Below are positions 1,061-58,435 of a stretch of 64,000 bases of DNA, one piece after another. How positions within the stretch are numbered: position 1 is the first letter of the stretch; the number at the start of each line of letters is the position of its first letter. The translations under genes and the position numbers were made by a program. Location of the stretch: assembly GCA_029959195.1 (NCBI GenBank), contig CP114127.1, forward strand, positions 930,001 to 994,000. Direction: 5' to 3'. The DNA is from Dictyophora rubrovolvata (Eukaryota > Basidiomycota > Agaricomycetes > Phallales > Phallaceae). The notes below the pieces were generated by a model. That model saw nothing but the letters and a program-made list of their open reading frames with translations, ran no database searches and was not told the origin of the DNA.

Positions 1061-1839
1061 TTTTTATTTTGAGCCGACTTTTTATTTTGAAAGAAGGTCC
1101 CCATTTTTTGTATATGTATTTTTGCTATTTTAATTATATTTAAACATTTTCTCAATCTCTAGTGCATGCTAAATGCTACACTTGTTAGTAACTAACTTAT
1201 TTTTTTAACAAACACGTACATTCGTTATTAAAGTAAAGGACCTTTTCTAAAAAAAAAATTTCCGTCAACTATACTTTTTATATAACAACCACAAGTAGCC
1301 GCAAATTGATTTGGCCTTCGCCTAATCATCGAGAGAATCCGGGGCCTATAACCTGTGAGAATTCGGACATATGTATGTAGCGCAACTAAATACAATTTTC
1401 CGTAGCAGCTAATAGAAATATGTCTATCAAGCGTCATCATTACTATGTATGTAACCCTTATGCTCCTAGAAAAAACGGACTTACCCAAATGTTTGTTAGG
1501 AAATACTGGGGAATGCTACATATTGGAAACATCCATAAACGCTAGGTTGACCGTCGGTGATACGTGTGATTCTGTAAGGATTCTATATGCGCATGGAATT
1601 GTGTTGTCAATGCGGGTGCATGCATGAATTGGACCTAGAACAATATGAGACTCACATTTACATAATGGAGTATGATATTCTGTGGTCCAGGAAGCTGTAG
1701 GATGTGGTAACGTTACAGGCGTGGTGTCGACGCTGTCTGTCGATGTTTTTGTTTTATTAGAGAACTATAATCCTATCCGTGTGTTGAATAGTGCGCGCTT
1801 TACCTAAATTGAGTTGATTGACTATTTGGCGGATTTTGA
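1061..1839. other. Intergenic, nothing recognised
   Basis: AT-rich DNA downstream of the membrane-protein gene. It holds T-rich tracts typical of a 3' untranslated region near 1060-1150. I see no gene or repeat here. Confidence 0.5.
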
Positions 1840-1930
1840 ATGTTCACGTCAACAATTGAACAGAGATGGGCGTTGATGCGGGTGCCATTCTTGAAGAATA
1901 GTGGTCGTTGTTGAGGATACTACCAAATAC
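1840..1930 (-). pseudogene. Remnant of small hydrophobic family Y gene (5' end only)
   Basis: On the minus strand, an ATG at 1888-1886 starts a peptide beginning MAPASTPISV, which matches the start of the family Y gene at 4749 (MAPASIPTSV). The frame meets a stop at 1844 after 14 codons. The next ~60 bases still resemble the 4.7 kb copy at nucleotide level but are not in frame. It is best read as a decayed end of the X-Y cassette array that occupies 1.8-6.6 kb. Confidence 0.55.
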
Positions 1931-2166
1931 CGACGGAGGATCAATAGAAAGAGCAAGAAAGGGAACAGTTGAAAATGTCGTTGACATGAATGAACGAGAA
2001 ATATAGATCACCAACACTGTGGATGCCATGGGCTGAGGGGAGGAGAGGGGGAGAATTTATTGGGTTGAAGAAAAGGGCGAGAAGAAAAATTTAAGGAAGA
2101 AAAAGTATTCGGTTTGAGGATTCTTTTATACATGTTACTGACTGGGAATCCCATGATTAATATCGT

Positions 2167-2266
2167 GCATACAATGAATATATCGAAGCGCACAATAAAT
2201 ATATCGAAAGTTCACAATGAATACATCGAGATGCATAATGGATATAATGAATATATATCGAAATTC
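2167..2266. repeat. AT-rich minisatellite of ~22-bp units upstream of family Y copies
   Basis: About four imperfect units resembling CACAATGAATATATCGAAG lie head to tail. Single or double copies of the same unit occur at 3301-3345 and 4870-4892, and in reverse orientation at 57776-57800, each time at the same place relative to a family Y copy. It is therefore part of the duplicated cassette and not independent satellite DNA. The adjoining string TCTCGCGATAAGTTGAGCA is also shared between 2303-2321 and 3391-3409. Confidence 0.7.
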
Positions 2267-2737
2267 GTTATATCATTTATTCACAATTTGTCTACATACA
2301 ATCTCGCGATAAGTTGAGCATATATATATGTTGAGGGATTTAGAGAGAACTTGAATGCGCTGGTAAGAGTAAGAAAAAGGAATCGGTCGTCCTATATAAT
2401 TACTAACAAATAACAAGTGTTTTTTTCCTCCTGCGTCCGTGTCCATGTAATATCTGCCTATTCTGAGCGTATTTAAGGACGCTCCATCTATTTCCGAGTC
2501 TATAATTTCAACAAGTATTGTTGAGAACGATGATGAGGATACGAAGAAAAACCATGATAAAAATCGCCCGAGTCCCATCGTCCCTGTATATTACTCGTGA
2601 TCCCCTTGGCCTCCAGAACGCGTGAACCCTAATACATGTATGCAATCGTCCGCTAATGTCGCATAACACTCCACTTACAATCTGGTCCGCGCATAGATGT
2701 CCGTGTGGGATGCAAAGGTACCGGAGAAAGAAGGGAT

Positions 2738-3250
2738 TTAGGAAAATTCGGTGGTGGTGGCGTTGGTGGTTCTTTTAACCACTTCTCCCATTTCTTCCCC
2801 ATCTCTGTTTCGAAGGACTTGCCTGCCAATCAGTGTGCTGCAGGAGCGAGTAGTTTTTCTCAACCAATGTAACGAAACCCCGACAGCTGCGGCCGTGCCT
2901 GTAGCGCGGGCCGCCTGGATAAGTGGGATCTCGACGGCAAGGGTGGGCGGGTGTGAAAGGTGTCGCAGGAGGGGCTGTCGCGGGAGGGGCGGGTGTGGGA
3001 GGGTTGTCCGTCCGGGAGGGTGTCTCCTGGGGCTTAGGTACCACAAGTAGTTTCACAATGAATTTCCCCGCTCCCGTCTTGGAAAACTTGTCCCATACCT
3101 GCCCGGCTATTAGTGTCAGTAACGAGCGGATGAGGAACATGGCAAACCCCACCGCGGCGGCCGTCGACGTCATCCACACAACTAGGAGAAGAGGGATTTC
3201 TAGATGCAGTAATGTCAAATTGAGGTTTGGGTTGACGATAACGGCCGCGT
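2738..3250 (-). pseudogene. Family Y small hydrophobic protein, decayed and internally duplicated copy
   Basis: Two family Y segments follow each other on the minus strand. The first (about 3240-2980) contains MTSTAAAVGFAMFLIRSLL followed by a basic and then a proline/threonine-rich stretch. The second (about 2960-2740), in another frame, contains EIPLIQAARATGTAAAVG then VSLHWLR. Both align with the copy at 4749. The start codon used there reads ATC here (the residues are KIATPN where the other copy has RMAPAS), and the two halves are in different frames. An open frame could still start at 3371, but the loss of the conserved start and the frame change argue for a relic. It lies downstream of the truncated family X copy at 3784-4330, in the same orientation, as in the other cassettes. 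Confidence 0.5.
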
Positions 3251-3783
3251 TTGGCGTAGCGATTTTCAAAGAAGGGAAAAAAGTTATTAGGTCAGATCCA
3301 TGTAATGAATATATCGAAGCGTACAATAAATATAGCGACATACATATCAAATGTATTATATCATTATTCACCTGGTTCTACATACAATGAGTCTCGCGAT
3401 AAGTTGAGCAAATTATGTATATGTCAATGGATTTAAAGAGATTAACTTGCTTGCAGAAAAAAAAACCCGGTGCTGACACTGCAGTGGATTTTAGGTGGTA
3501 CATGGCGTTCGCGGCCATTCTTTTCAAGAATTTATGAGTGAGTGATAATGACAACTATCAAGGAAAATCTTGAATTTGTGCGCCATGCGCTGCACAGTAA
3601 ATACTAAATACATACCCCAACTACTTCGACAGCAATACTTGTTCTTTCTCATACATGTCTCCAAAAAATAGTTTCATAACTTTATCCATATTGATGACAC
3701 ACGATACCATTCAGACTGTCAATGCCTTAGTCCGAAGAGTAAGTGTCAAGTAACAACTTCCGTCCTCGTTAATACATCGACGA

Positions 3784-4330
3784 CTAAAACAAACGGTGCT
3801 GTCGGTCAATATGTTGTCTAACATACAGTAAAAAAACGACTAACAAGCTATCCACCGTGTGACGGGAAAATGTCCAATAGTGTTTACTCGGTATGCCCCC
3901 TTTTGGGAGATCTACCGGCGTCGACATGTTGGTCGACCACATTGGGTGGCCCATGGCCGACCCCCGGGTAAAAATCTTTCTTTTGCCATAACGTGAAACT
4001 TCAAAGGACACATGAACTTTTTTTCCCTCCAAATTGATTTGAGAAGGTTTCAATGGATCTAGATATAACTTCCACTGTCCGAGTTGTCCGCCCTCGACTG
4101 AAAGGTACATTCCCCAGACCTGACCTTTAGGAAGAAATTACAGAATTAACAATCCAAACCAATTTCGACAACAAATAAATACCTCTAGCCACAAATTCTA
4201 TATCAACGAGCCCCGAAGCCAATCTCTGTGACATATCAGGAACAAACCACTTCATCTTGAACCCAGAACGAGTGTGAACCACTTCTAGAGATTCTGGGAG
4301 GCCGGAAGACCTTAAGCCTTGTCCGCTGTA
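3784..4330 (-). pseudogene. Family X gene, 5'-truncated copy (copy B)
   Basis: Only the 3' third of the family X gene is present. Reading on the minus strand from about 4328, the sequence matches the intact copy from its AKYIEIGHGLR segment, through GFKMKWFVPDM and a small intron, to WKLYLDPLKPSQINL and SRYGKRKIFTRGS. Matching introns and a final exon coding INEDGSCYLTL can be traced to about 3720. Everything 5' of the AQIS codons is absent: the sequence there passes straight into the 3' flank of the family Y gene at 4749-4312. This abrupt joint looks like the boundary of an unequal duplication or deletion. It has no promoter or start and is presumably non-functional. Confidence 0.7.
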
Positions 4331-4749
4331 CGATATTTGCGCCTTTTCCCACCGGACACTTGCAGGAAGAGTTGGTTCTGGGGATAATGTGTCAACATGA
4401 GCAGGCTAAATGGATGATCTACAGATACAGAATTATCACGCACATGTTCCCTAAACGGGGGGGTGTCCGATGTTTGTGGCGTTGTAGTCTGGCAGTGTGT
4501 GCAGAATGTGCGCGGATGCTCCGGGGGTTCCCTGAGCCACTTCTCAAGCTTCTTCCTTACGCTGGTGTCAAAGAACTTCTTCTTAAGTCGGTTCCCTAAT
4601 AAAATCCGCAACCAGTGCGGTGATAGTCCGACCCCAACCGCCGTGCTTGTAGCCCGGGCCACGTTGATCAGTGGGAATTCAACGACGAAAGCAGTTGGAT
4701 TGAGAACATTGACATTCACAACCGAGGTCGGTATCGATGCGGGTGCCAT
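4312..4749 (-). CDS. Family Y small hydrophobic protein of unknown function
   Basis: This is the only family Y copy in the window with both a start and a long uninterrupted frame (145 codons from the ATG at 4749-4747). I do not recognise the protein. Residues about 20-60 form a mainly hydrophobic, Gly/Ala/Val-rich segment with motif VEFPLINVARATSTAVGVG, then SPHWLRILL, followed by a strongly basic stretch (GNRLKKKFF) and a Pro/Thr-rich tail with EHVRDNS. The pattern suggests a membrane-associated helix with a basic flank; that is inference. It sits downstream of family X copy A in the same orientation. The last ~20 codons run into the truncated X copy B and are probably not part of the ancestral protein. 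An upstream ATG at 4773 is possible, but the paralogue at 1888 supports 4749. Expression is unproven. Confidence 0.45.
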   Translation of the reverse strand: MAPASIPTSVVNVNVLNPTAFVVEFPLINVARATSTAVGVGLSPHWLRILLGNRLKKKFFDTSVRKKLEKWLREPPEHPRTFCTHCQTTTPQTSDTPPFREHVRDNSVSVDHPFSLLMLTHYPQNQLFLQVSGGKRRKYRTADKA

Positions 4750-5218
4750 TCTTGAAGAAGAAGAAAAAATCATTAGGTTCAGGGTTTTATACCCGCGGAA
4801 AAGCGCCGTGTATTAAGGTCGAAAAAATTCAAAATAATGCCCGTGCTATAGTTATTCATTTTTCTGATTGATAGCACGCATACAATGAGTATATCAAAAT
4901 GTATTATAGCATTCATTTGCCTTGAACAGTAGTTTGTATACGCCGGACTTGTTAATTTACATGAATAATGTAGGACACTGCTTCAGTCTTCCGCTGTCAG
5001 AACGCGCAAAAGATGTTGCGAAGAGTGTTGAAACAAAAAAGAAACTATAAATAGAAAATAAAGTGTATTTTAAGTATGTCTCGAAAAAAAAAATTCCCCC
5101 GTGAATAAGAGAAAAGAAGAGACAACCATTCAAATTATTACAATGCAAAACTCCAAACTTTAAGTGTCAAATAACAGCTTCCGTCCTTGTTTATGGACCG
5201 AGGACTAAAAACAAATGG

Positions 5219-6338
5219 TCAATATGTCACCTGATATATTGAAAAAATGACCAACCATCCATCCACCATGCGACTACGTATTGTCCAATGACAGGTGTTT
5301 GGAATGTCTCCTTCGATAGGGAGATAATTCAGTGTCGGGATGTGGGTCGTATTCAGGTCAAACGCGGTCGAGTCCCGGCTAAAGATCCCCCCCTTGCTAC
5401 GACGTGAAACTCTTAAGGACCCATGAACACTTTCCCCCTTTAAATCGAGTTGAGAAGGCTTCAGTAGACATAATACTACCTTCCACCTCTTTGCCCTCAG
5501 ATCGAATGTACATACCCCAGACTTGACCTGCAAAAGGAAAATACCAGGATTTTCATGATACATTGAACTCGACCGAAGTTTTAACCATACCTCTTGCCAC
5601 AAATTCTATACCAATGACGACACCTAATTCCAACCTCTGCGACATGTCGGGAACAAACCATTTCATCTTGAACCCGAGAGAAACAGGAACAACCGTCACG
5701 GTTTCCTGAAGGGTAGTAGGAGGCGGCCGTAGTCCGTGTCCGATTTTTATATACTGCGCACGGGTTGTTTTAGGACGAGCTTGAAGCTGTCTCAAACTTT
5801 CTCGTCGGACTTGGCTGAAGAAATTGTTGAGACCTGTCGTGGCGCACGCTGAGTATAGCTCATCTCTGATAGCTTCAGTGAGAGGGAACTCGTCCAGAAA
5901 TATTTGAAGGAGGCGATGTCGTATGCTAACTTGTAGCAGGTCGTCCGATGGCGAGTGGAGAATTATCCAGGCTGGCAGAGATTTACCTTCTAGTCGGAAG
6001 TCATAAAACTGAACCACTGGACCAACGGATAGTTCGGTCTGTTTACTCGCTTCGATGCATTCGCGAATGGCTGTTATGATGCATGGTGACATCCTTTGAG
6101 CGTGGGAGGCAAGCCAAATGTGTCGAATCTGTAGCAAAAAAAAAGAAAAGGTCCATTTAATTCGAATCGCGGTTACGCCGTCTGGTAAACATCGAATACC
6201 ACCCACGAGATCAATGATTTGAGCTTTGAATTCCTCGACGGATTTGGAATCGTTGAGCTTTACCCCAAAATAATGGAAAAAGTCCCCAGCTTCACCGCAT
6301 TCGCATTCGCATTTATGATGGGACAGTTCAAGTTCCAT
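5219..6338 (-). pseudogene. Family X gene, copy A, probably inactivated
   Basis: This copy is collinear with the intact gene at 56146-57447. Exon 1 codes CECGEAGDFFHYFGVK, an intron of similar position follows, and exon 2 contains RHIWLASHAQRMSPCIIT, VQFYDFRLEGKSLPAWI and GFKMKWFVPDMSQRL. The promoter is also conserved, including a TATATAA box. Two lesions stand out. The ATG used at 56146 is deleted, leaving the later ATG at 6338. After the third exon begins (GQVWGMYI), a net 11-base difference shifts the frame, so translation would end about 35 codons on, while the old frame (LKPSQLDLKGESVHG) continues unread. A shortened protein cannot be excluded, but a recent pseudogene is more likely. 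No function is known for the family. Confidence 0.6.
6097..6104. other. Junction area inside family X copy A intron 1
   Basis: The first intron of copy A ends near here and keeps the T-rich acceptor tract seen in the intact copy; the exon that follows starts with the codons for IRHIWLASH. The shared intron position supports descent of the X copies from one intron-containing gene and argues against retroposition. Confidence 0.35.
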
Positions 6339-6768
6339 GTCCTTAGAGTCGAAAGTCGAGGGTTTTTCGGATTCTGATTGACGAGAAGAAATTGCTAGTT
6401 TGAACGGTAGGTTGAATTCAGAATCATGAAAGTATTATATACGGGCTAATGTAATCTGGAAAGGAGGCGGATGAACGGTTTAATAGTACCGGAATGTATT
6501 TGAACGATGGTGAGACATATCAGTCCTATCTTCAAGCCTCTGGAGCCCTTATAAGTTGTTTTTAAACTACTTCATCGAGCAGATAGAATGTCAATCTTCG
6601 AACGCGAACTTGAGCCTTGAATATTGAATCAACACCGACGACTCGCCGCCCACTCTAGCGCTAAAAACGCGTAACGTCGCACGAACACTCGCGGAGTCTG
6701 AAAACGCGACAACAACCGCCCTACCCTACTCAAGCTCAAGCGTCATCCTCTTAACAAAGAAACTATAC

Positions 6769-7560
6769 ATGTCGATTGTTTCAATCAAAAATGTTCGTGT
6801 AAGTTGGTATCTGATTATATTATAAGAGGGTACTTCTGTTAATCTATGCAGTTTTTAAATAACCCCGCGCGGTTTCTCGATCCATACCGATTTCAGGTTA
6901 CCTTTGAATGCATGGCTCCTCTAAAAGACGGTAAGAAGAAAAACTTCCTACCCAATTTCCGCGTCTACCTCAAGTTTTTTAAAACGAAATCTTCAGATCT
7001 CGAATGGAAACTCATCTACGTCTCATCACCGGACAACATGTCACTCGATCAAGAGCTAGATGACTGTCTCGTCGGACCGGTACCAGTAGGAATCAGCTCT
7101 TTCGAATTCCAAGGATCGCCCGTTCAGCCATCGCGTATACCACGGAACGACGTGCTCGGTGTTGCAGCGTTGATTTTGACAGGGAGTTATAACGATCAGG
7201 AGTTTGTCCGTGTTGGGTATTATCAGAATACGGAGTATGATAATGAGGAGATGCAGCTTAATCCACCGGAGAGTATTCAGTTTGAGAGGTTGGTTAGGAA
7301 TTTGTCGGATAAGCCGCGGGTGACGAGGTTTCATATCAAGTGGTGGGTTTGGGGTTTTCAAAGAGGTTGAATTGACGCTTGACGTTTGTTTGTTTGTTAG
7401 GGATGTTGTGCCACAGATGACTGCACAAGTTGCTGTTCAGGGTGGTCCTGCTCAATCTGCATCTGTTCCGTCAGCAAACGATTATGTCACTACGACTACG
7501 AGCACTGCTGCAAGTGCTACAAGCCCCGAGCGAGAGCCTAACGGAGTTGCTGTTTCGTAA
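6769..7560 (+). CDS. ASF1: Histone chaperone ASF1
   Basis: Four exons (6769-6798, 6852-6930, 6997-7342, 7401-7560) join in frame to give 204 residues. The protein binds histone H3-H4 dimers in the nucleus and passes them to CAF-1 and HIR during replication-coupled and independent nucleosome assembly. The conserved core is plain: MSIVSIKNVR, then NNPARFLDPY, FEC, DDLEWKLIYV, then DQELDDCLVGPVPVG, NEEMQLNPP and RVTRFHIKWD. The conserved core of about 155 residues is followed by a short Ser/Thr/Ala-rich tail, as in other fungi. The first exon codes only ten residues; its ATG is chosen because MSIVSI is the family start. It is divergent from family X copy A, with about 430 bp between them. Confidence 0.96.
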
Positions 7561-50067: not shown

Positions 50068-52771
50068 ATGGCTTCGTCCGAAGAGCAGCCTCAGCCCGCA
50101 ATCTCTAAACCCGGAACTTCCATACCGTCAGCATCGTTCTCTTTTACAGCACCGTTCCCACTTCGGCTGGGAGTTTCGAATCCTACAAAACAGAGACGTG
50201 TCTCTTTACCTTCATCTCCACGTCTTTGCCCCGCCTCAGGTTGGCCCTTTCGTGATGAAATGGGCTTAGAGGCAATTTCGACAACAGCTGCTGTTGCTCA
50301 CCAGGATAAAGATACAGATATAAAGGTCGACAAGAAACAAGAACTAAACCTAACTAATTTAGTTGGGGACGACTCAGTAATGCTCCCACCAGCCTCTTCA
50401 GAGAAACGACCGAGGAAGAAATGGTCAAAGGAGGAGACCCAGATGCTCGTAGATGGCTGCAACAAGGTATGTTGTCTTGTCCTTACTGCATTCAGAGCTG
50501 TATTGATATATATCATTGCTCATCGCTAGTGGGGCGTGGGGAACTGGAAATCGATCTTGAATGACCCTGCTTTCACGTTTGACAACCGTTCTCCGGTCGA
50601 TCTTAAAGACAGGTGAATCTCGCATCCCTTAGCAACGTACCAGGGACTATCCTTGACTATGCATTTCCCCCCCCTTTTTTCACAAAGATTTCGTACCTAC
50701 TTTCCCGATGCGTATAAGCAACATTACCCCAATGCTAAAACACATTTATCCTCCAAAATACGATCATCCTTACCCGACGGAACGTCAATCTTCGAGAAGA
50801 CTCGCAGTAAAAAGCGAAGACCTTTTACGCCAGAAGAAGACGAGGCGTTGAAGCGTGGGTATGATAAAGTACGCAGTATATTAATATCATTTGGACCTTG
50901 GGATATATATATGAACGAGTGCAATTTCATTTTAGCACGGTACCCTATGGGCGTCCATCCTCAAGGATCCTATATTCCACGAAAAAAACCGGCGCTCGAC
51001 GGACCTTCGAGATCGGTTTCGAAATGCATTTCCCGATTTATACGAAGCTGCCGGATACAAACCTCGCAACAACGCGAAAAAGAAAAAGTCGGATGAAGGC
51101 CAAACTACGTCTATCGTCGTGTCTTCGCTCTCAGAGATTTCGTCAAGGGAGATCGAGAGGCCAGAAAGGCCTCGAAGGAAACGTGCTAGTACGGCTCCAG
51201 GTCTACGATCCTCAATACGCGGAAGAAAACCCATTCCAGATAGCACAACGGCCTCAGATTCCGAGACAAGCTCAGGCATAGAGGAAGGTCGGAGGGGTAG
51301 AACCATATCTAGACGACGTCGCAGTCGTAGTAGAGCTACTCCTCAACCCGAACGGAGTCGACCTATCGATATGGTCCCTACCGCTGCCGAAATACTTGCA
51401 CAATCTCAAGAATTATCTCCTGGTGAACTATCATCCTCGATGACTGCGCCTTCCACTGGGTCAATGTCCACCGAGTCGCTATGCTCACATAATGCGTGGC
51501 CAATAGCATGCAGAACACCTACTGACCCTACACATACTACAGGATGGATCCCTTCCCCACGACGTGTTATCTCGGCAGACCTCTTCCTTACCTCTTCCCC
51601 TCCCAACGCAATTAATCCTCACGCAGTTATTGGTAAATCAGCCTGGATGCCTGAAGACTGGCTTTCAGCTAATCCGCGTCTCGAATCGTCTCATCTGTCA
51701 TCAAGTAGTGGTCCATCGCCTGCACCCTCTTCACCGTTCTCTTTCGCTCAGGGCGTCGTGGACCGCTATGATCTTTTCCCGTACACTTCTGCATCTTCAG
51801 AATTCGAACAAGACACGCATTCTCACTCCGCTTTCTCTGAGGCAGACATGTTTAACGCCGCTACATCTAGTTATCGTGGATTTACACATCACTCCAGTGA
51901 AGCGGGTGATCTCATCTTTGCCGTCGGTCGAAATAATGTTAACGGAATAGGTGTCGGCTCAAGACTAGACATGACTGTCCATAGATCTCTACCTAACATA
52001 GATGAAATCCCTGTGGACACTGTCCGGTTACCTGCACACCACCGTCTTGATACGGAAATGAGCGAAGCACAATTGTCGTCGCCACCTGACGAACCACCAG
52101 AACTTGACTTCCATATTCCTCTTGTCTCTACGCCTACTTCAGAAGTGCCGATGCCTATTCCGACACCTGCCATGGCGAAAATTCGCCAACAAACCGGCGC
52201 CGCGATGGGTAGCTACCGATCGTCGTCACAGCCTCCAACTGAGCTGTCCCACTCGATGCGGACGCACTCACTTTCAATGTTTGATTTACCGGGTGAACAC
52301 GATCTTACCGATTTACCATTTCTTGATATGCATTATTATGGCGTTGGAATGGGGGTGTCGAACGCACATGCCGCACTTCTTCAGGATCCTGTTGTCGAGT
52401 CTTTGGATCTAGCGGGAATGGCGAACTCGATCAAAAATGGGAACAACCATACTGATCATCTACATCCTCCAGCATCACCTACACAATTTCATTCGCTGGC
52501 TCAGGCGCATTTGCAGCTTTCGCCCTTTTTAGCTCCCAGTACGGCTACTCCTTCTCATGCGAGCTCACTGACGTCGAGCAACTCGTTTTCATCTGTTGCT
52601 GCTGTACTGTCGCCTCCGTCTCTTCCCTCCAAGTTCCCCGTGTTCCCTTCTCCAAACGCTCGTCAGATGTATCACCATAATCGAGTACAATCAGCTGTTT
52701 CTCCTGCGGATCTACTTCTCAAAGACAATAAACGAAAGCGGGTCTCGTGGGATGGCGGCAACGGCAATTAA
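50068..52771 (+). CDS. Two-Myb telobox protein, Tay1/Teb1-like telomere-binding factor
   Basis: Four exons; the last one is long (about 1.8 kb). Two Myb/SANT domains lie at about residues 112-175 and 205-265: KKWSKEETQMLVDGCNKWG with VDLKDRFRTYFP, and RRPFTPEEDEALKRGYDKHG with TDLRDRFRNAFPDLY. Each ends with the telobox-type third helix VDLKDRFR / TDLRDRFR that reads TTAGGG repeats in TRF, Taz1, Teb1 and Tay1. The rest is disordered, Ser/Pro/His-rich, with a nuclear-type basic patch (NNAKKKKSDEG) and a basic C-terminus (DNKRKRVSWDG). Two tandem Myb domains near the N-terminus fit Tay1 of Yarrowia and Ustilago and Teb1 of fission yeast. It may bind telomeres, act as a transcription factor, or both; the sequence cannot separate these. 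Confidence 0.83.
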
Positions 52772-55929: not shown

Positions 55930-56096
55930 GTTGGTTGGCTCGCGTTCGCGTTCGAAGACTGACATCTCGATTAATGGCTCACACACAACTTATAAAGGCC
56001 GGAAAATGGACTGATATGTAAGTACGTCATCATCGTTCAATAAATTCCGGTACTATTGAACCGTTCATCCGCCTCCTTTCCGATTACATTAGCCCC

Positions 56097-56145: not shown

Positions 56146-57447
56146 ATGAATACTGTAGCAATTTCTCCTCGTCAATTAGAATGGGAAAAACCCTCGACCG
56201 AAATCGTCATTCAAAAGGACATGAAACTGTCCCATCGTGAATGCAAATGCGGTGAAGCTGGAGACTTCTTCCATTATTTTGGGGTAAAGATCAACGACGC
56301 CAAATCCGTCGAGGAGTTCAAAGTTCAGACTATTGCTCTCGTAAGTATTCTATGATTACTGGGCGTAAACGCGATTCAAATCAAGTGGAACTTTTTTTTT
56401 TTTTTGCTTTAGATCCGACACATTTGGCTTGCCTCCCACGCTCGAAGGATGTCACCATGCATCATAACAGCCGTTCGTGAATGCATCGACACGTATAAAC
56501 GAACCAAACTACCCGTTGGTCCAGTGGTTCAGTTTTATAACTTCCGATTGGAAGGTAAATCTCTGCCAGTCTGGATAATCCTCCACTCGCCGTCGGACGA
56601 CCCGGGCTCGTTACAGGTTGACACGCGACATTGCCTGCTTCAAACATTTATGGACGAGATTACTCTTACTAAATCTATCAGAGACGAGCTATACTCCGCG
56701 TGCGCTAGGACGGGATTCAACAATTTTTTCAGCCGGGTCCGACTGGAAAGTCTGAGACAGCTTCAAGGTCGTCCTCGTCCCAAAACAACTCATGCGAAGT
56801 ATATCGAAATCGGACATGGCTTACGGTCGTCTTCTGGTCTCGCAGAAACTGTCAAGGTGGTTAACACTCGTTCTGGGTTCAAGATGAAGTGGTTTGTCCC
56901 TGACATGTTACAGAAATTGGAATCGAATCTCTTCGTTAGCATAGAATTCGTGGCTAAAGGTACTTCAAGTTGATGTGTTGTTAATTCTGAAAACCCTTGA
57001 TAATTTTTCCTTCTTCGCATAGGCCAAGTCTGGGGTATGTACATTCAAGCCGAAAGCGGACAACTCGACGAACAGTGGAAGTTAATAATATGTCCATTGA
57101 AGCCTTCTCAAATCAATTTGGATGGGAAAAATTTTTCTGCGTCCTTTGCAGTTTCGCGTTATGGCAAAAGAAAGGTTTTTAGCCGGGGTTCGACCGTGAC
57201 GGAGCGCCTGAGGTCGACCCGCATGTCGACGGTGGATCTCCCTGAAGGAGGCATGCCGAATAATCAGTATTGGAAATTTTCCCGTCGTCAGGTGCATGGC
57301 TTGTTAGTCGTTTTTTTTTACTGTATGTCAGGCAACATATTGACTGACGGTACCGTTTGTTTTAGTCATCAATGCATTAACGAGGACGGAAGTTGTTGCC
57401 TGATGCTTACACTTCAGACCCCGGAATTGTCACAGTTTAAATGGTAA
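56146..57447 (+). CDS. Family X protein, intact copy, unknown function
   Basis: I do not recognise this protein. Three or four exons give about 390 residues: exon 1 from 56146 ends at GTAAGT (56341), exon 2 begins at about 56414 (IRHIWLASH), exon 3 follows an intron near 56961-57024. Features are a Cys-rich start ECKCGEAGDFFHYFGVK (two Cys in CxC), a helical region (RRMSPCIITAVREC), VQFYNFRLEGKSLPVWII with the following LHSPSDD, NNFFSRVRLESLRQL, GFKMKWFVPDM and a basic beta-like C-terminal region with LKPSQINLDGK and SRYGKRKVFSRGST. There is no signal peptide, membrane helix or catalytic signature. The end is uncertain: the frame stops at 57447, or splicing of 57325-57366 gives an earlier stop. 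Only this copy keeps the first ATG and an unbroken frame. Confidence 0.65.
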
Positions 57448-57859
57448 TAATATGTGGATCAAGTTATGAAACTATTTAGAAACATGTACGTTAACTTAGA
57501 GTATTGCTGTCGAAAGTATTGTGATATGTATTACTGTGCAGAGCAGGGATAATGACACACCTAAAATCCAAGTTTTTCCTTAATCGTTGTCATTATCAAT
57601 CACTCAAACAAATTCTTGAGAAAAAACGGCTGCCGGAGGTTTGCGCAAATACTATGTACCCCCTAAAATCTACTGCAGTGTCAGCACCGGAATTTTTTTC
57701 TTGCCAGCGCATCCAAGTTCTCTCTAAGTCCATCGACACGCTTACTCAACTTATAGCAAGATTCGGTATGTTCCTTGTGCACTTCGATATATTCATTGTA
57801 TGCATGTTAATCATGGGATTCCGACTCGGAGTCAGTAATTACGTATAAAAAAACCCCAA

Positions 57860-58200
57860 AAGCCGAATATCGATACCGACCTCAGTTGTTAACCCAATCT
57901 CCTCAATCCGACTGCTTTCGTTCTCAAGTTACCACTGAACAATGTGAACCGGGCTAGTACAGGTACGGCGGCGGCGGTTGGACTATCGCTACATTGGATG
58001 CGACCCCAGCAGGGAACCGACTCAAGCACAGGTCCTTTGATACGAATATGCTCTATGCGCCTAAAACACACTCTGAATCGCCATTCTTTGGCCCTATTGC
58101 ACTCATCCTTTCCCTGGTCACAATCAAACATCTCACTTCAAGGGTGGTTGAAGGAACCCCCAAAGCCAAAATTTCCCCTCCTTTATAACTCAGGTTCGTT
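57860..58200 (+). pseudogene. Family Y small hydrophobic protein, decayed copy
   Basis: Downstream of the intact family X gene and in the same orientation. The sequence matches the 4749-4312 copy from ATACCGACCTC onward, with the conserved RASTGTAAAVGLSLHWMR block at about 57947-58000. The ATG is lost (the bases before ATACCGACC no longer code MAPAS), and one base is missing in the Val-Asn repeat, so that block lies in another frame from the start. It appears inactive. Confidence 0.6.
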
Positions 58201-58435
58201 GGAGTGTTCTTTTTATCTCTTGATGCTTCAGCTTGACGGCTCGTATTAGTTTTCTTATAAATCATTTCCAAGCTTTCGAAGTTGTCATTGTTCATCACTG
58301 TATGTCTGAGGTAAGTATTCAATCTGGCAAGATCACTTTGTTCATGCAAACTATTAGGTTCTATAAATATAAAGAACATGTACGTGATAATTCTGCAGAA
58401 TCTGTAGATCATCCAGCCTGCTCACGGCGTCAGTG

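Follow-up and report, generated by a model that had tools for sequence, protein, structure and literature searches.

Orphan gene families X and Y of Dictyophora rubrovolvata: a dispersed family and a duplicated X-Y block on chromosome 11

The closest described systems to the gene cassettes reported here, in which a gene of family X is followed by a small gene of family Y, are wtf-wag and het-B. The wtf genes of Schizosaccharomyces are multi-copy, include many pseudogenes, undergo non-allelic gene conversion, and have a second family, wag, beside some copies (PMC9562144, accessible part). In Podospora anserina, het-B consists of two adjacent genes whose variants differ greatly, and in one of the genes the C-terminal domain is itself highly divergent (PMC10890737). 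The cassettes were examined in a stretch of 64,000 nucleotides (the window), C11:930001-994000, on chromosome 11 of Dictyophora rubrovolvata, the edible red-volva stinkhorn, strain Di001. They can be likened to wtf-wag by genomic pattern only. X and Y are head to tail whereas wtf and wag are divergently oriented, and neither X nor Y is known to have driver activity. They differ from het-B in possessing no HET domain by Pfam and in that the variants are paralogues in one genome, most of them broken.

The reading preferred here, with a probability of roughly 0.6, is the birth and death of orphan genes: a dispersed X family and an X-Y block of one origin, locally duplicated and mostly broken, rather than an obligate two-gene machine. 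Overall, X and Y most likely serve a dispensable function specific to the lineage. X is a dispersed multi-copy protein-coding family whose members have three introns and an upstream element in common. An X on chromosome 11 would have come to sit approximately 0.4-0.5 kb before a Y, and the block of X, spacer, promoter, and Y would then have been copied by local segmental duplication into five cassettes or parts. Since then, several of these would have been disrupted through point changes, unequal exchange, insertion of a Tc1/mariner element, and a 0.4-kb repeat.

The genome searched consists of 11 contigs (28,239,528 bases) of one strain. The published Dictyophora rubrovolvata assembly totals 32.89 Mb, according to the accessible part of its description (PMC10411574). 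Approximately 4.6 Mb of unplaced contigs lie outside the search, so that the copy counts for X and Y are lower bounds. Copies of X are named by their kb on the chromosome (C2:2616, for example). Those on C11 are 911, 934 (a fragment, at 4.3-3.7 kb of the window), 935 (6.4-5.2 kb), 986 (56 kb), and 1006. The Y genes are Ya (4749), Yb (3275), Yb2 (2962), Yc (approximately 57.9 kb), and Yd (C11:1009183), and they fall into types A, B, and D. Yd belongs to the X at 1006, and the two are referred to as cassette 1006/1009. Positions without a chromosome are those of the window.

The dispersed X family

X carries the motif CxCGEAGDFFHYFGV and is found at approximately 6398-5162 (-) and at 56146-57403 (+), with a DNA identity of 74% over 1.27 kb (expectation value, E, 8.6e-233). 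An earlier note, made from the window alone, had put its length at approximately 390 residues. The gene has four exons and three introns, and the spliced product is approximately 360 amino acids (359 in 986). A total of 15 X loci were identified on five chromosomes: the five on C11, six on C2 (2429, 2604, 2616, 2635, 2665, and 2745), two on C9 (1072 and 1577), and one each on C10 and C7. There are clusters on chromosome 2 at 2.43-2.75 Mb and on chromosome 11 at 0.91-1.01 Mb, and the rest are singles. Weak matches on C8 (E 0.10) and C6 (E 0.11) were kept out of the count. Introns 1 and 2 are each at corresponding sites in 11 of 14 modelled copies, the models having been fitted to the 986 protein and thus leaning towards its intron pattern. 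A motif search located the exon-4 tail, VVxxLTRTEVVx-stop, in five copies (911, 986, 1006, C2:2616, and the 934 fragment), and in C2:2665 it was recognised by reading the sequence.

Four of the 15 copies are open through exon 3 (986, 911, C9:1072, and C2:2665), and the other 11 are broken or fragments. Only 986, which has no stop or frameshift, is intact by every check. The intron-3 donor is altered in 911. C9:1072 is open from its own ATG, with exon 4 not recognised, and in C2:2665 the aligned ATG is ATA and an in-frame ATG is present upstream. In 935, the aligned start codon is gone and exon 3 is frameshifted near 5487. The longest DNA match of the 934 fragment is the 56-kb copy. The 1006 copy contains in-frame stops and a 407-bp high-copy repeat; there are 7 stops in its model, some of them within the repeat. 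This 0.4-kb repeat, at C11:1005786-1006192, is inside at least three X copies (1006, C9:1577, and C2:2635). It was considered as an X-specific sequence and rejected as high-copy, since there were 423 first-look candidates, of which 40 were scored, and at least 40 near-full-length places at 96-100% identity. C2:2745 and C9:1577 are a recent copy between chromosomes, with a synonymous divergence (dS) of 0.13. In the copy at C2:2428291-2431827, the C-terminal part after exon 2 is replaced by other sequence. By eye, we take this replacement to be like a piece of the translation factor eIF5B.

A conserved element is located upstream of X in both 935 and 986 (Table 1). Its 14-bp form, AACC[AG]TTCATCCGC, has 10 exact matches genome-wide, and nine of these precede a copy of X. 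Allowing one mismatch raises the number to 22, versus 11 for the reversed control. Because the pattern was derived from X copies, this enrichment partly restates their kinship. A hidden X at the tenth exact match, C2:1046120, was sought and rejected: the best tblastn result was a single row with E 0.006, on the other strand, at 35% over 48 residues, and no X was found there on reading.

X has been kept as a protein by past purifying selection. In exon 2, the ratio of the proportions of nonsynonymous and synonymous differences (pN/pS) is 0.35-0.77 over 55 pairs (11 copies), and the upper 95% bound is below 1 in 54 of them, the exception being C2:2616 with C2:2665. The corresponding ratio of divergences (dN/dS) for exon 2 is 0.36-0.75 in five recent pairs and 0.12-0.44 in deeper pairs; six deeper pairs were saturated and not computable. 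Exon 1 of 1006, which is spurious and enters the repeat, was dropped from the dN/dS comparisons. In exon 3, dN/dS is 0.88 (911-935), 0.69 (986-911), 1.30 (911-1006), and 0.57 (2616-2665), exceeding that of exon 2 in three of the four pairs compared.

The earlier note recognised neither protein, and no significant match to X or Y was found in Pfam, NCBIfam, PHROGs, or PDB sequences. The best Pfam matches, all below the curated cut-offs and judged to be chance, were Zot (E 0.025) and Rap-GAP_dimer (E 0.039), with C-terminal parts of single X copies, and Zn_ribbon_Nudix (E 0.069) for Y. The best in PHROGs was phrog_32529, of unknown function, with Yd (0.036); NCBIfam gave none, and the best PDB sequences were at 0.48 (X profile) and 1.3 (Y). 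Pfam searches of X and Y gave no HET, NACHT/NB-ARC, TIR, HeLo-type, or other domain connected with death or sensing, and no homeodomain. Bacterial/archaeal and viral contigs scanned with the X exon-2 alignment (X only) yielded 28 and 27 pattern matches, none of which was confirmed. In mating-type A (HD) loci, homeodomain genes adjoin the gene for mitochondrial intermediate peptidase. A link to this locus was considered and rejected, as Peptidase_M3 matches are on C3 and C4 and none is on C11. The accessible parts of the Phallus/Dictyophora genome papers do not mention incompatibility, heterokaryon, meiotic drive, or mating. For Phallus echinovolvatus, two haploid genomes have been announced (PMC11766896).

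AlphaFold, proposed earlier as a check on X, gave no usable fold. The mean predicted local distance difference test (pLDDT) score was 36.6 for a nearly full X and 37.2 for the C-terminal part, too poor for anything beyond a helix-then-strand layout, with helices occupying the N-terminal half to two thirds and strands the remainder. X would appear to be soluble, its conserved N-terminal part (Cys-rich CxC..FFHxFG) being mainly helical and its C-terminal part rich in strands, a layout that would suit an adaptor or recognition protein. By eye, the order of W and strand-like segments in the C-terminal part, which is strand-rich in the poor model, may recall a MATH/TRAF-like beta domain (an eight-strand beta-sandwich), a likeness that Pfam did not back. 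Seven spliced X or C-terminal sequences gave no Pfam MATH match at E <=10, and the domain was not claimed. In Y, a hydrophobic stretch of 19 residues (mean Kyte-Doolittle 1.4-2.0) goes with a net charge of +3 to +9. It would be a small basic protein, perhaps weakly associated with membranes.

Y genes and their linkage to X

The Y genes are downstream of X in the same orientation, at 4749 (-), 3275 (-), 2962 (-), and approximately 57893-58015 (+), and the spacing between X and Y on chromosome 11 is approximately 0.4-0.5 kb. There are three cassettes or parts of cassettes in the window, at 6.4-4.4, 4.3-1.86, and 56.1-58.4 kb, as the earlier note had described. The differing states of decay and the copying of promoters and spacers that it noticed were also borne out. 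The 935 X has lost its start and frame, Yb has ATC for ATG, and Yc is without the aligned ATG. The Y promoter and spacer are shared across cassettes 911, 935, and 1006/1009, and the conserved element precedes X. Each of X and Y has its own upstream block, and the two are probably transcribed separately. Yd and Ya are the only Y copies found with both an ATG and an open frame. The frame of Ya continues into the truncated X fragment, which leaves its natural 3' end uncertain.

The earlier note stated that X is always followed by Y. This is the case in the chromosome 11 cluster and not elsewhere: the ten X loci on other chromosomes yielded no Y. Three Y queries (E <=1 for one and <=10 for two) located no Y in the genome outside the C11 cluster. 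A Y profile run on the flanks of the ten loci gave nothing convincing, with a best E of 3.8 at nine loci and of 0.41 (4.3 bits, judged to be chance) at C2:2635. For nine of the loci, 806-1499 bases downstream were read by eye and contained no Y-like frame.

A tree of X exon 2 was made with 11 of the 15 copies, leaving out two that are too broken (C7 and C2:2604) and two in which exon 2 is wholly or mostly absent (the 934 fragment and C2:2635). The four C11 copies form a single clade, with a support of 100/99 for DNA and 97/95 for protein. Thus the X-Y neighbourhood arose once, and the pairing is a copied linkage. In the tree of exon 3 (seven copies), 935, 911, and 1006 group at 93/94, under the support threshold of the tool, and 986 does not join them. 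Fixed pairing with rapid duplication and decay, as earlier suggested, was therefore upheld for duplication and decay and not for fixed pairing, given the single clade and the X genes without Y.

The integrity of X and that of Y within the cassettes are not linked. The open X genes on C11 (986 and 911) adjoin a broken or absent Y, and the open Y genes (Ya and Yd) adjoin a broken X. In the 911 cassette, the Y promoter and start codon remain and are followed by unrelated sequence instead of a Y body. The two genes do not survive or decay together, which argues against an obligate two-component cassette of the poison-antidote type; action in trans is possible. Between the 1006 X and its Y there is a Tc1/mariner-like element of approximately 1.6 kb (C11:1007381-1008965), inserted apparently at a TA. 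It has DDE_3 and HTH_Tnp_Tc3_2 domains, and its transposase frame is open over at least 348 codons.

Table 1. X and Y genes, gene remnants, and associated elements in the window
Feature	Positions	Strand	Remarks
Conserved element AAACCGTTCATCCGC upstream of X	6467..6481	-	precedes C11_935
X copy C11_935, pseudogene	5162..6398	-	exon 1 ~6398-6207, intron 6206-6129, exon 2 6128-5591, intron 5590-5528, exon 3 ~5527-5234, exon-4 remnant with stop
End of X-Y spacer and Y promoter (TATAAAACCC)	4750..4954	-	common to cassettes 911, 935, 1006/1009
Ya, Y type A	4440..4749	-	open frame from ATG at 4749, continues to 4312
Truncated X (934 fragment)	3746..4336	-	3' half, from the end of exon 2 through exon 4; introns 4182-4125, 3826-3784
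Yb, Y type B	3018..3275	-	start codon ATG changed to ATC
Yb2, Y type A fragment	2700..2962	-	N-terminus absent; 3' part continues in another frame
Y start-region fragment, 40 bp	1859..1898	-	85% identical to 4720-4759
Conserved element GAACCGTTCATCCGC	56058..56072	+	74-88 bases before X start codon
X copy C11_986	56146..57403	+	exons 56146-56340, 56413-56959, 57023-57322, 57366-57403; 359 amino acids
Yc, decayed Y type A	57740..58430	+	aligned start ATG lost; extra sequence after recognisable core 57893-58015

Short AT-rich direct repeats of the AATGAATATATCGA type are present in the inter-cassette spacers, at 2147-2250, 3299-3359, and approximately 57770-57810. Several of nine scanned reading frames in the window matched housekeeping families, namely UDPGP, SNF2, glycosyltransferase 20, WD40, and DyP. 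A few kb before the 56-kb cassette, at 50936-52771, there is a reading frame of 611 amino acids with no Pfam match at E <=0.001. We presume, by eye only, that it resembles part of a regulatory protein.

Identity along the cassettes and alternative explanations

Cassettes 935 and 1006 were compared in 100-nucleotide windows with the flanks of the Tc1 element joined. Identity is 0.72-0.94 along exons 2-3, the spacer, and the Y promoter, falls to 0.65 in the window over the Y start codon, and is 0.47-0.53 beyond. The 911 cassette is less clean, with 0.60-0.76 in the last promoter windows and then 0.36-0.53. Residue identity among Y types A (Ya), B (Yb), and D (Yd) is 34-38%, with a synonymous proportion (pS) of 0.68-0.79, as against a dS of 0.23 for X exon 2 of 935 and 1006. 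Ya and Yc are closer (pS 0.58, pN 0.18), despite belonging to the more distant cassettes 935 and 986. On both counts, the Y types do not track the relationships of the cassettes, and the likely cause is exchange between cassettes or replacement of the Y body. Between 911 and 935, identity is 93% upstream, 96% in exon 1, 100% in intron 1, 93% in exon 2, 84% in intron 2, and 82% in both exon 3 and the spacer, which suggests gene conversion at the 5' end.

The pattern of Y types is what a self/non-self or allorecognition pair could produce, with Y (or the C-terminal domain of X) as the specificity part, Y types kept or shuffled by selection, and promoters and X homogenised. The sharp drop in identity at the Y start codon, the divergence of Y types beside similar X genes, the higher dN/dS of X exon 3 in three of four pairs, and the two adjacent, highly divergent genes of het-B are all in its favour. 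It is nevertheless unlikely. Pfam gave no death or sensor domain, the divergent Y types are paralogues within one genome and not alleles, and 11 of the 15 X copies and all Y copies but two are broken or fragments. In addition, conservation is lacking on the 3' side of Y, so that a hypervariable gene and one-sided recombination junctions are indistinguishable, and such junctions suffice. It is rather improbable that C11 holds a stinkhorn recognition cluster in which promoter and X are homogenised by gene conversion and Y is swapped between divergent types as the specificity part, forming a self/non-self or killer system with no sequence relation to those known from fungi. A conflict or recognition role in general is possible at low probability, and it is mainly the pattern of Y types that points to it. 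A killer meiotic driver or poison-antidote family, like wtf with its neighbour wag in fission yeasts, appears highly improbable. Duplication, many pseudogenes, and the signs of non-allelic exchange between 911 and 935 resemble wtf evolution as the accessible part of its account gives it (PMC9562144), and Y is small, basic, and hydrophobic. However, X and Y are not linked in integrity, X is without Y at all ten loci off C11, and nothing here shows killing.

The dispersal of X on five chromosomes, the recent C2-C9 pair, and the transposons in and beside X copies could indicate that X, or X with Y, is cargo or a gene of a transposable element. Neither X nor Y, however, matched a transposase, integrase, reverse transcriptase, or any other mobile-element protein. 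The earlier note had set its proposal against a match to a known family such as a transposon protein; such a match was searched for and not found. The copies retain introns, which shows that they are no retrocopies, the transposons found have inserted within copies or beside them, and no inverted repeat pairs of at least 40 bases are present in the window at 1500-7000. An origin as transposon cargo is therefore considered very unlikely. Y could also be a conserved non-coding stretch with chance reading frames, given that only two copies combine an ATG with an open frame. This is quite unlikely. The TATA-type promoter is common to three cassettes, and pN/pS for Y is 0.32-0.73 in 10 of 10 pairs, with the 95% bound below 1 in nine of them and codon position 3 changed more than positions 1 or 2 in all ten, values that rest on a protein-guided alignment, which favours ratios below 1.

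Birth and death of orphan genes remains the preferred explanation, and several points weigh against it. The roles discussed for the two proteins are deduced from sequence. Further X-Y pairs could lie in the approximately 4.6 Mb of unplaced contigs. Y diverges so fast that the searches may have overlooked a fourth type of it on another chromosome, and a Y displaced by an insertion could lie past the 0.8-2 kb that was read. The four open X copies may still code, in which case turnover would be less complete. Finally, the mismatch between Y types and cassette relationships goes beyond simple block duplication alone.

With X and Y, the fungal orphan genes gain two further unnamed families, whose local history of duplication and loss is clear. 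Rapid duplication and death of lineage-specific genes is in general well known. The unusual feature is that identity between cassettes ends at or near the Y start codon, with related promoters before very different Y proteins. Should the Y types prove to be kept by balancing selection, this cluster would offer a new place in which to seek genes of allorecognition or conflict in Phallales.

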